Below are positions 41,961-45,103 of a DNA stretch of 64,000 nt, piece by piece (positions within the stretch are counted from its first letter, which is position 1; each line of letters opens with the position of its first letter). The stretch comes from Armatimonadota bacterium (lineage in GTDB: Bacteria > Armatimonadota > UBA5829 > DTJY01): assembly GCA_029907255.1 (NCBI GenBank), contig JARYMF010000008.1, positions 1 to 64,000 on the forward strand, in the 5' to 3' direction. The notes below the pieces were generated by a model, which saw only the letters and a list, made by a program, of their open reading frames with translations, made no database searches and was not told the DNA's origin. Position numbers and translations under genes: made by a program.

Positions 41961-43295
41961 TTATAGCACGGGCAGATATTCATCTAATTCGAACTGCGTT
42001 ACCTGAGCTTTGAACCTATTCCATTCAACTTTTTTGTTTTGAATCAATTTTGTGAATACATGGTCCCCTAGCGTTTTTCGCAGGAGTTCGCTTTTTTCTG
42101 CGCAGACAATCGCATCGTGTAGGTTCTCAGGTAGTTGGCCAATTCCCAGTGCCCTTCGTTCTTCATCGTTCATTTCGTAGACGTTGCGCTCGACTGGCTC
42201 AGGGAGCGGGTATTCATTTTCGATTCCCTCGAGACCTGCTGCGAGCATGACAGCAAACGCAAGATATGGGTTGCAGGCTGGATCTGGTGCCCTATACTCA
42301 ATTCGAGTTGCCTTTTCCTTGCCTGGTTTATAGGCTGGTACTCGAATCAAGTCTGATCGATTGCGCACTGCCCATGAAATATAAACTGGCGCTTCATAGC
42401 CCGGAATAAGTCTTTTGTATGAATTCACCCATTGATTCGTTACAAGGGTAATCTCAGGAGCGTGTCTTAGGAGACCTGCGATGTAATGCTTTGCTATTTT
42501 AGAAAGATGGTACTTATCATTTGGGTCAAAGAATGCATTCCTCGAGCCCTTGAATAGCGATTGATGAGTATGCATTCCGCTACCATTCATGCCGAAAATT
42601 GGCTTGGGCATGAATGTTGCATATACGCCATATTTCATGGCGATTTCCTTGACGACCAACCGATAGGTCATTGCGTTATCGGCCATCGTGAGTGCATCCG
42701 TATACCTAAGGTCAATTTCGTGTTGGCTAGGGGCAACTTCATGATGGCTAAACTCGACCTGAATGCCCATTTCCTCAAGCGTCATTACAGTTTCCCGCCG
42801 AAGATCGCTAGCAACGTCAGCAGGAGTCAGGTCGAAATAACCACCTTCGTCGAGTCCCTCTGGCGTGCCTTTGTTGTTTTTGAAGTAGAAGTATTCTAGC
42901 TCCGGACCGACGTAGAAGGTATAGCCCATTTTGCTGGCTCGTTCTAATACCTTCTTGAGCACATACCGAGGGTCACCTTCGTAAGGCGTTCCATCCGGCA
43001 GATAGATATCGCAGAAAACGCGTGCGACGCCAATGTCGGGTTTTGTCCTCCAAGGCAGAAGCTGGAAAGTACTGATATCGGGCATTGCAATCATATCGCT
43101 TTCATCAATGCGCACGAATCCCTCGATGGACGAGCCATCAAAGCCCATTCCCTCTTCAAGTGCTGTTTCTAGTTCGTTGAACGTAATGGCAAAGCTCTTT
43201 AGGAATCCGAGAATGTCGGTAAACCAAAACCTTATGAACTTCACATTACGTTCCTTTGCCATTCTTAGTACGGATTCTTTGTCGTTCTTGCTCAT
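41961..43295 (-). CDS. glnA: Glutamine synthetase, type I alpha
   Basis: The 444-residue enzyme makes glutamine from glutamate, ammonia and ATP. Signatures are MGFDGSSIEGFVRIDESD near the N-terminus, YVGPELEYFYF, SQHEIDLRY, GMNGSGMHTHQS, LIPGYEAPVYISWAVRNRSD and the IEYRAPDPACNPYLA segment. The length, and the absence of the central insertion and the adenylylated-tyrosine loop of GSI-beta enzymes, make it an alpha-type enzyme regulated by feedback or by transcription. Upstream are a good promoter, a 130-nt leader with small hairpins and a terminator (see 43313-43412), so attenuation is likely. It is divergent from gdhA. Confidence 0.95.
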   Translation of the reverse strand: MSKNDKESVLRMAKERNVKFIRFWFTDILGFLKSFAITFNELETALEEGMGFDGSSIEGFVRIDESDMIAMPDISTFQLLPWRTKPDIGVARVFCDIYLPDGTPYEGDPRYVLKKVLERASKMGYTFYVGPELEYFYFKNNKGTPEGLDEGGYFDLTPADVASDLRRETVMTLEEMGIQVEFSHHEVAPSQHEIDLRYTDALTMADNAMTYRLVVKEIAMKYGVYATFMPKPIFGMNGSGMHTHQSLFKGSRNAFFDPNDKYHLSKIAKHYIAGLLRHAPEITLVTNQWVNSYKRLIPGYEAPVYISWAVRNRSDLIRVPAYKPGKEKATRIEYRAPDPACNPYLAFAVMLAAGLEGIENEYPLPEPVERNVYEMNDEERRALGIGQLPENLHDAIVCAEKSELLRKTLGDHVFTKLIQNKKVEWNRFKAQVTQFELDEYLPVL

Positions 43296-43312
43296 TTTAA
43301 TCTCCTTTCTTG

Positions 43313-43412
43313 GCTAAAAAATAAAAAAGCCGCGGATACACCACTTGGTGTCTCTGCGACCACTTCTGCGTGAAAAAATCTTTCTGTGATTTTTCTAGGG
43401 GCATCAATGCCC
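43313..43412 (-). ncRNA. Leader attenuator of glnA (candidate ANTAR-type element)
   Basis: Read on the minus strand, the leader has hairpin 1 GGGC-ATTGAT-GCCC (43412-43399), hairpin 2 GAAAAATC-ACAGAAA-GATTTTTTC (43395-43372), then a 14-position stem with tetraloop AAGT (43360-43329, two mismatches) followed by TTTTTTATTTTTT. The last is a standard intrinsic terminator ending 18 nt before the glnA ATG. Both upstream loops have A at position 1 and G at position 4, the pattern recognised by ANTAR antitermination proteins; hairpin 2 has seven loop bases instead of six. The attenuator itself is well supported. The ANTAR assignment is inference. Confidence 0.6.
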
Positions 43413-43433
43413 TGTAATTATTTCGACAAACGC

Positions 43434-43463
43434 ATTATACAAAAACAGTTTTCTTTTCGTCAA
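43434..43463 (-). promoter_or_regulatory. glnA promoter
   Basis: On the minus strand, TTGACG (43463-43458) and TATAAT (43439-43434), with a TG extension, are 18 nt apart. Predicted start of transcription is near 43427. Confidence 0.85.
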
Positions 43464-43611: not shown

Positions 43612-43640
43612 TTGACTTAGAATTGAAGTTTTGTTATAAT
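43612..43640 (+). promoter_or_regulatory. gdhA promoter
   Basis: TTGACT (43612-43617) and TATAAT (43635-43640) are 17 nt apart. Predicted transcription start is near 43647. The sequence between this and the glnA promoter (43464-43611) holds no gene that I can see. Confidence 0.88.
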
Positions 43641-43644
43641 CCCG

Positions 43645-43735
43645 ATGCCGAAGTTGGCATGGTGAAGGATGCAAAGCCGCATCCCTACTATAGTTGGCGC
43701 TGGAGCCCGCACGATTGCAATCGTGCGGGCTTTTT
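43645..43735 (+). ncRNA. Leader attenuator of gdhA (candidate ANTAR-type element)
   Basis: The leader has ATGCC-GAAGTT-GGCAT (43645-43660), GGATGC-AAAGCC-GCATCC (43667-43684) and a perfect 12-bp terminator stem AGCCCGCACGAT/ATCGTGCGGGCT (43704-43731, loop TGCA) followed by TTTT. The second hairpin has an exact A1/G4 hexaloop. A weaker GGC-GCTGGA-GCC (43696-43707) would use bases of the terminator's left arm and so could be an antiterminator. The first hairpin begins at or slightly before the predicted transcription start, so it may be incomplete in the RNA. The terminator lies 120 nt before the gdhA start codon. Confidence 0.6.
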
Positions 43736-43855
43736 GTTTGTGCTGTGGTTTAGTGTTTCACAAATGTTTGAGGAGGTGGTTGCGCGTAGCATGCTTATAC
43801 AATTCTAGCTGAAGAATTTTTGATATTTTTAAACTTTAATAACAGGAGGCAGTGG

Positions 43856-45103
43856 ATGGCGGAACGAAATCCGTTTGAAATTGCTCAGGCTCAACTTGAT
43901 CGTGCAGCAAAGTTGCTAAACCTTGAGCCTGGGGTACACGCAATGCTGCGGGAGCCCATGCGTGAATTGCATGTGAGCCTCCCTGTTAAAATGGATGACG
44001 GAACCACTAAGGTTTTTAAAGGCTTCCGGGTTCAGTACAACGACGCCCGTGGTCCAAACAAGGGCGGTATTCGATTTCATCCTGATGAAACCATAGATAC
44101 CGTCCGTGCATTGGCGGCATGGATGACTTGGAAGTGTGCAATTGTAGATATTCCCCTTGGCGGCGGCAAGGGCGGCGTTGTTTGCAATCCCAAAGAAATG
44201 TCTCAGCGTGAGCTCGAACAGCTTAGCAGAGCGTATATCGATGCTGTCGGCAGAATTCTTGGCCCCGAGAAGGATATTCCAGCGCCAGATGTCTATACAA
44301 ATCCGCAGACTATGGCATGGATGATGGATGAGTTTAGCAAGTTGAGGGGCTACTATTGTCCTGGCGTCATAACTGGCAAGCCACTGGAACTTGGTGGCTC
44401 AGAGGGAAGGGGCGATGCCACAGCACGCGGCGGAATGTATACGCTTCGTGAAGCTGCGAAATTCCTAGGCATTGATCTTTCAAAAGCAACCGTTGCAATC
44501 CAAGGGTTTGGGAACGCAGGCTCCTTCGCGGCAATCCTTGCCGAGGAGATGTTCGGTTCAAAGATTGTCGCCGTAAGCGATTCCCGTGGGGGCATCTATA
44601 AGCCCGATGGCCTTAGTGCGCGGGCAGTGCTCGACCATAAAAATAAGACTGGTTCCGTAGTCGGATTCCCTGGCACCCAGCCGGTTTCAAACGAAGGTCT
44701 CTTAGAGTTAGACGTTGATGTCCTTCTTCCAAGTGCTTTGGAAAACGTGATTACCGGCGAGAATGCCGAGCGAATTAAGGCAAAGATTATCGGTGAGTTG
44801 GCGAATGGTCCTACAACCCCAGAAGCAGACGATATACTATATAAAAATGGCCGTTTTGTTATCCCCGATTTTCTTTGCAATGCCGGCGGTGTAACTGTAT
44901 CTTACTTCGAATGGGTGCAGAATATTACAGGCGACTATTGGGAAGAGGAGTACATCCACGAGCGGCTAGATAAAAAGATGACGAAGGCGTTCCACGATAC
45001 GCTGACTGTATCGCTGGAGCGTAAGGTGGATATGCGCACGGCGGCCTACATGGTTGCAATCCAGCGAGTTGCAGAAGCAATGAAACTAAGAGGTTGGGTA
45101 TAG
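43856..45103 (+). CDS. gdhA: Glutamate dehydrogenase (hexameric, GluDH family)
   Basis: The 415-residue enzyme interconverts glutamate and 2-oxoglutarate plus ammonia with NAD(P). Signatures are [37 protein letters not shown] (substrate Lys and the glycine loop), [22 protein letters not shown], the Rossmann motif IQGFGNAGS and [12 protein letters not shown]-like [12 protein letters not shown]. The ATG at 43856 with an AGGAGG site (43844-43849) gives the family start [11 protein letters not shown]; the frame is open to 43820. Its leader contains a terminator, like that of the divergent glnA, so both nitrogen genes appear to be under antitermination control. A terminator also follows the gene. 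Confidence 0.95.

Follow-up and report, generated by a model that had tools for sequence, protein, structure and literature searches.

Leaders of the divergent glnA and gdhA genes of an Armatimonadota bacterium as probable ANTAR-type transcription attenuators

In a 64,000-nucleotide stretch of DNA from an Armatimonadota bacterium (hereafter the window), an intrinsic terminator stands between the promoter and the start codon of the glutamine synthetase gene glnA. The upstream neighbour, gdhA, lies on the plus strand and there is no minus-strand gene at this place that the terminator could serve. The gene (41961–43295, minus strand; start codon ATG at 43295) encodes a type I glutamine synthetase of 444 amino acids (TIGR00653, 546 bits versus a cut-off of 429), whose best named relatives outside its own genome come from Armatimonadetes MAGs. 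Its promoter (43434–43463, minus strand) is composed of the −35 element TTGACG (43463–43458), a spacer of 18 nt, and the −10 element TATAAT (43439–43434); it matches the consensus at 11 of 12 positions and is 92% identical in the sister species. Three hairpins follow on the same strand. H1 (43399–43412), GGGC[AUUGAU]GCCC, has a hexaloop with A at position 1 and G at position 4 (A1/G4). H2 (43373–43395), with the RNA sequence GAAAAAUC[ACAGAAA]GAUUUUUU (in DNA letters GAAAAATC[ACAGAAA]GATTTTTT, 43395–43373), combines A1/G4 with a seven-base loop and has a pair probability of 0.71. H3 (43360–43373), UCAC[GCAGAA]GUGG, has a G1/G4 hexaloop, abuts the terminator, and reaches a pair probability of 0.63 for its inner three pairs in RNA folding. 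The terminator (43323–43360, minus strand) comprises the stem GTCGC...GCGGC (43360–43329; pair probability 0.99, −15.5 kcal/mol when folded alone), with TTTTTTATTTTTT directly on its 3' side, and ends with the first U run. The stem contains internal mismatches; a simple terminator scan overlooked it, and RNA folding recovered it. The minus-strand promoter, the hairpins with the loops ATTGAT and ACAGAAA, the seven-base length of the latter, the terminator, and the lack of an upstream gene for it had all been described in an earlier note on this DNA and were confirmed by sequence and folding; of the hairpins, it had listed H1 and H2 correctly and missed H3.

The earlier note had further proposed that the leader is an ANTAR-type attenuator. 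The predicted fold of the leader was stronger than that of shuffled sequences (z = −3.1; equally good in 2 of 200), and two C–G-closed hexaloops with a purine at position 1 and G at position 4, as formed by H1 and H3, occurred in none of 3000 dinucleotide shuffles (P = 0.02 when the C–G closing condition was dropped). The glnA leader of the window had no part in setting the C–G and purine-1 criteria, which were derived from the leaders of gdhA and of the Deltaproteobacteria. Compared to the canonical ANTAR RNA with two A1/G4 hexaloops, H1 (AUUGAU) fits, H2 (ACAGAAA) has one base too many, and H3 (GCAGAA) has G1. The linkers measure 3 nt between H1 and H2, 0 nt between H2 and H3, and 26 nt between H1 and H3. 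It is known that the hairpins of the Enterococcus faecalis eut leaders are 5–12 nt apart and that induction suffered when this distance was altered to 3 or 14 nt (PMC3369931); all three linkers lie outside this range, and only the 3-nt linker falls within the 2–25 nt accepted for actinobacterial ANTAR RNAs (PMC8164766). The terminator overlap typical of the second hairpin (P2) is missing, too: H3 shares at most base 43360 with the terminator, in that its outer U–G pair may take the first base of the stem. As both structures coexist in the predicted fold, there is no clear mutual exclusion between them. Lastly, R1, a home-built and not a published covariance model, yielded 9.2 bits for the leader, which is not significant (E = 2.3). 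Because of this score, the seven-base loop, the spacing, and the compatibility of H3 with the terminator, the glnA leader of the window cannot be certified on its own as a canonical ANTAR RNA; it is a variant.

A clearer ANTAR case is the leader of the divergent gdhA gene (43856–45103, plus strand), which is assigned to glutamate dehydrogenase at the family level only (NF040817 GdhA_Arch, 648 bits, below the cut-off of 750). Its promoter, TTGACT-17-TATAAT (43612–43640, plus strand), matches the consensus at 11 of 12 positions and is 97% identical in the sister species. The following three plus-strand hairpins are AUGCC[GAAGUU]GGCAU (43645–43660), GGAUGC[AAAGCC]GCAUCC (43667–43684), which is P1 of the best covariance-model match, and GGC[GCUGGA]GCC (P2; 43696–43707). 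All three hexaloops are closed by C–G; AAAGCC fits A1/G4 fully, and GCUGGA and GAAGUU have G1. P1 and P2 are separated by 10–11 nt, which is in range, and P2 runs into the strong intrinsic terminator AGCCCGCACGAUUGCAAUCGUGCGGGCU with its U run (43704–43736, plus strand), as the 5' arm of the terminator stem (43704–43731) includes the 3' arm of P2 (43705–43707). R1, which was built from leaders of this kind, scored 27.4 bits at 43667–43708, and the next best match in the 64 kb reached 10.5 bits; as parts of this leader were among the 17 training rows of R1, the match is a specificity check and not independent proof. The gdhA leader of the window is thus an ordinary ANTAR RNA of the known kind.

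At least 10 further genomes of the class have a leader of the same kind before gdhA. In 11 gdhA leaders, 33 of 49 hexaloop hairpins carry a purine at position 1 and G at position 4, compared to a mean of 2.7 and a maximum of 9 in 1000 shuffles, and A or G at position 1 together with G4 was found in all 11 genomes. Helix P1 shows changes on both sides in five of its six pairs, with a covariation score of 0.516 versus 0.188 for shuffled and ≤ 0.137 for slid alignments. The glnA leaders were too few for such an analysis, so that the covariation check suggested in the earlier note succeeded for the twin leader only. The closing C–G pair, G4, and the P2 core GGC/GCC never vary, and P2 as a whole hardly does; typically, it reads GGGC[ANNGNN]GCCY and extends into the terminator. 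H1 of the glnA leader has the identical form. Three ANTAR-type hairpins are present in the gdhA leaders of the host genome (G000), G012, G017, G019, and G024, and likewise in the glnA leaders of the host genome and of G003, a member of another genus of the family. In the sister species (G001; locus L175), the first gdhA loop reads GAAAUU and has lost G4, and P2 is one G shorter, with the terminator kept; these changes reflect either decay or an assembly error. The gdhA leader of G002 has a terminator, but its hexaloop candidates are weak and have three pairs.

For glnA itself, the attenuator is kept in the sister species, is clearer in another genus, and is absent from two further genera (G002 and G004, i.e., two of five family members). 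In the sister species, whose glnA protein is 98% identical, H1, H3 (segment 43372–43361), and the terminator stem are 100% identical to the window, compared to 79% for the segments immediately preceding H1 and following the terminator and 93% for the start of the coding region. The glnA leader of G003 forms CGUUCC[AGUGAA]GGAAUG, ACAUC[ACAGUG]GAUGU, and GUGCC[GUAGAA]GGCAU, the second of which is the counterpart of H2 and has a regular hexaloop. Its terminator stem, GGAUGUAGA...UCUGCAUCC, takes in the 3' arm of this second hairpin, and forcing the hairpin in RNA folding costs 9.6 kcal/mol and abolishes the terminator. But for a 25-nt linker, this is the textbook arrangement. The divergent glnA–gdhA pair is also kept in G003, where both genes have textbook leaders. 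Elsewhere, the second glnA of G017 (L171) has AGUC[AUCGCC]GACU and GGAC[AAAGGC]GUCU with an overlapping terminator upstream.

On both strands of the window, we found four clusters in which two or more C[RNNGNN]G hairpins lie close together. A terminator follows just two of them, those in the glnA and gdhA leaders. Across 511 kb of related loci, which were drawn from around glnA, gdhA, amtB, and ANTAR genes and are not a random sample, terminator-bearing clusters of this type were nearly all glnA or gdhA leaders. A genome search with R1, in which no more than 150 first-look candidates were scored in each genome, did not recover the gdhA leader already known in the host genome, so it is unfit for counting targets; its lower-scoring matches lay mostly within coding sequence. 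Several of the terminators found before glnA in 80 orthologs of other lineages probably serve upstream genes. The upstream regions of amtB yielded one weak case, in another family; at locus L150 (G030, positions 92–132), from another family of the phylum, an ANTAR-like leader of 18.8 bits with a possible terminator lies before a porin-like gene that in turn precedes amtB. An ammonium transporter (PF00909) was found neither in the host genome nor in the sister species.

A search of the host genome for ANTAR domains, as the earlier note had advised, returned exactly one, in a protein of 193 amino acids with REC and ANTAR domains. Among proteins of solved structure, its best relative is PdtaR/Rv1626 (1s8n, 225 bits), followed by EutV (6wsh, 158 bits), both aligned over nearly the full length. 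The genome encodes a single HisKA_2 kinase (GAF-GAF-HisKA_2-HATPase), which starts within 1–2 bases of the end of the ANTAR gene on the same strand. Judged by sequence, the two genes are arranged as in a two-component ANTAR system, and the genome thereby holds an ANTAR protein with a putative signal input. Within the phylum, ANTAR genes were present in 34 of 41 genomes searched.

Based on the protein, the gdhA twin, the G003 homolog, and the conservation, we hold that the glnA leader works in an ANTAR-like manner. The class named in the earlier note was thus right, although the glnA leader would not have sufficed to assign it; most of the supporting evidence lies elsewhere, in the protein, the gdhA leader, G003, and G001. 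While the promoters, the hairpins, the terminators, and the two proteins, together with the conservation of all these parts, can be read directly from the DNA, the way in which they would act together is a proposal, to which we give high probability: the glnA leader and its divergent gdhA twin would be transcription attenuators worked by a single ANTAR protein. RNA polymerase would start 15–20 nt before the first glnA hairpin, or at the first gdhA hairpin, and by default the intrinsic terminator would fold and stop transcription before the gene. In response to a signal, presumably some measure of nitrogen state, the GAF-GAF-HisKA_2 kinase would phosphorylate the REC-ANTAR protein, which would then dimerize and bind two C[RNNGNN]G hairpins as a pair. 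With the last hairpin occupying or crowding the terminator stem on its 5' side, transcription would continue into glnA or gdhA. The direction of control would be antitermination, and the phosphorylated dimer would switch on both genes. A further and more tentative reading, which we consider possible but would not favor, is that the three-hairpin leaders represent a distinct ANTAR architecture bound by at least two dimers or by a sliding dimer, and that, in Armatimonadota, one PdtaR-like protein sets glnA and gdhA in step from the divergent promoter region that the two genes share. Such arrays would lend themselves to testing how ANTAR dimers make use of three or more hexaloops.

The alternative that survives best, and still an improbable one, is a plain leaky terminator that lowers glnA expression by a fixed amount, with the upstream hairpins having no ligand. 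It would agree with the predicted coexistence of H3 and the terminator, with the non-significant R1 score of the glnA leader, and with the missing attenuator in two family members. However, the loops are conserved along with the terminator, two C[RNNGNN]G hairpins combined with a terminator occur within the window at glnA and gdhA only, and the homologous G003 leader has an overlapping P2, all of which argue against a plain leaky terminator.

We regard a metabolite riboswitch for glutamine or another nitrogen compound, in place of a protein target, as very unlikely. The function of the gene and the strong structure of the leader would suit it, but no Rfam family, the glutamine riboswitch included, reached its gathering score anywhere in the window, and when the intergenic region was searched more permissively, with E-values up to 10, neither a riboswitch nor anything else relevant came up. 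The covariance-model check put forward in the earlier note was therefore negative with Rfam models, and with our own R1 model strong at gdhA and not significant at glnA. Moreover, conservation across the gdhA leaders is confined to the closing pairs and to positions 1 and 4 of the loops, with no extended conserved core, and the P1 stems vary freely. Just as little probability falls to hairpins that act on translation or RNA stability instead of termination, as in many actinobacterial ANTAR RNAs. The regulator is PdtaR-like, and an overlap with the ribosome site is frequent among actinobacterial ANTAR RNAs (PMC8164766); here, however, both leaders place an intrinsic terminator between the hairpins and the gene, and P2 of gdhA shares bases with it. 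Leader-peptide attenuation through a 38-codon frame, which opens at an ATG within H1, has AGGG five bases 5' of this ATG, includes four Gln codons, and ends at the glnA ribosome site, was rejected as the least probable of all, since the sister species lacks one base, which changes the frame after a few codons and eliminates the Gln codons, with H1, H3, and the terminator being identical.

Examples of ANTAR leaders upstream of ammonium transporters and of the genes for glutamine and glutamate synthase are documented from Firmicutes, Proteobacteria, Actinobacteria, and Bacteroidetes (PMC3369931, PMC3369936). Armatimonadota are not among the phyla named for ANTAR leaders (PMC3369936), and our literature search found no description of ANTAR attenuators in this phylum. 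ANTAR attenuation of central nitrogen assimilation would thus extend to Armatimonadota and to glutamate dehydrogenase, which could also hint at a role for the PdtaR–PdtaS-like two-component pair of the phylum. As in the EutV–EutW system of the E. faecalis eut genes (PMC3369931, PMC8934654), there is a REC-ANTAR regulator with a histidine kinase, the loops are closed by C–G and have G4, with A at position 1 in eut and A or G here, and the last hairpin lies against an intrinsic terminator. The system of the window differs from eut in its genes and presumed signal, in having three instead of two hairpins in several leaders, and in allowing G1; in addition, the glnA copy of the window has the seven-base loop and no real terminator overlap. 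The nitrogen-gene leaders of Firmicutes and Proteobacteria (glutamine/glutamate synthase, ammonium transporters, and nitrogenase) belong to the same gene classes and have the same architecture, whereas here glnA and gdhA are divergent and their leaders face opposite ways. Regarding PdtaS–PdtaR of Mycobacterium (Rv1626), PdtaR is the closest solved relative of the ANTAR protein, over its full length, but actinobacterial ANTAR RNAs are often located at ribosome sites (PMC8164766), and the leaders described here have terminators.

Deltaproteobacterial orthologs of glnA, about 71–73% identical, have a sigma-54-like promoter upstream, in contrast to the sigma-70-type promoters of the window. Their leaders form AAUAC[AAAGGG]GUAUU and AGAC[AAAGGC]GUCU, or close variants thereof, with a terminator that overlaps the second hairpin; these predicted structures are classical two-hexaloop ANTAR attenuators. 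One ANTAR gene each was present in all eight deltaproteobacterial genomes checked. We observed the combination of a sigma-54-like promoter with a two-hexaloop attenuator at loci L081, L085, L092, L094, L096, L100, and L107, and at L094, a deltaproteobacterial glnA leader, the P2 unit seems to occur twice in tandem.
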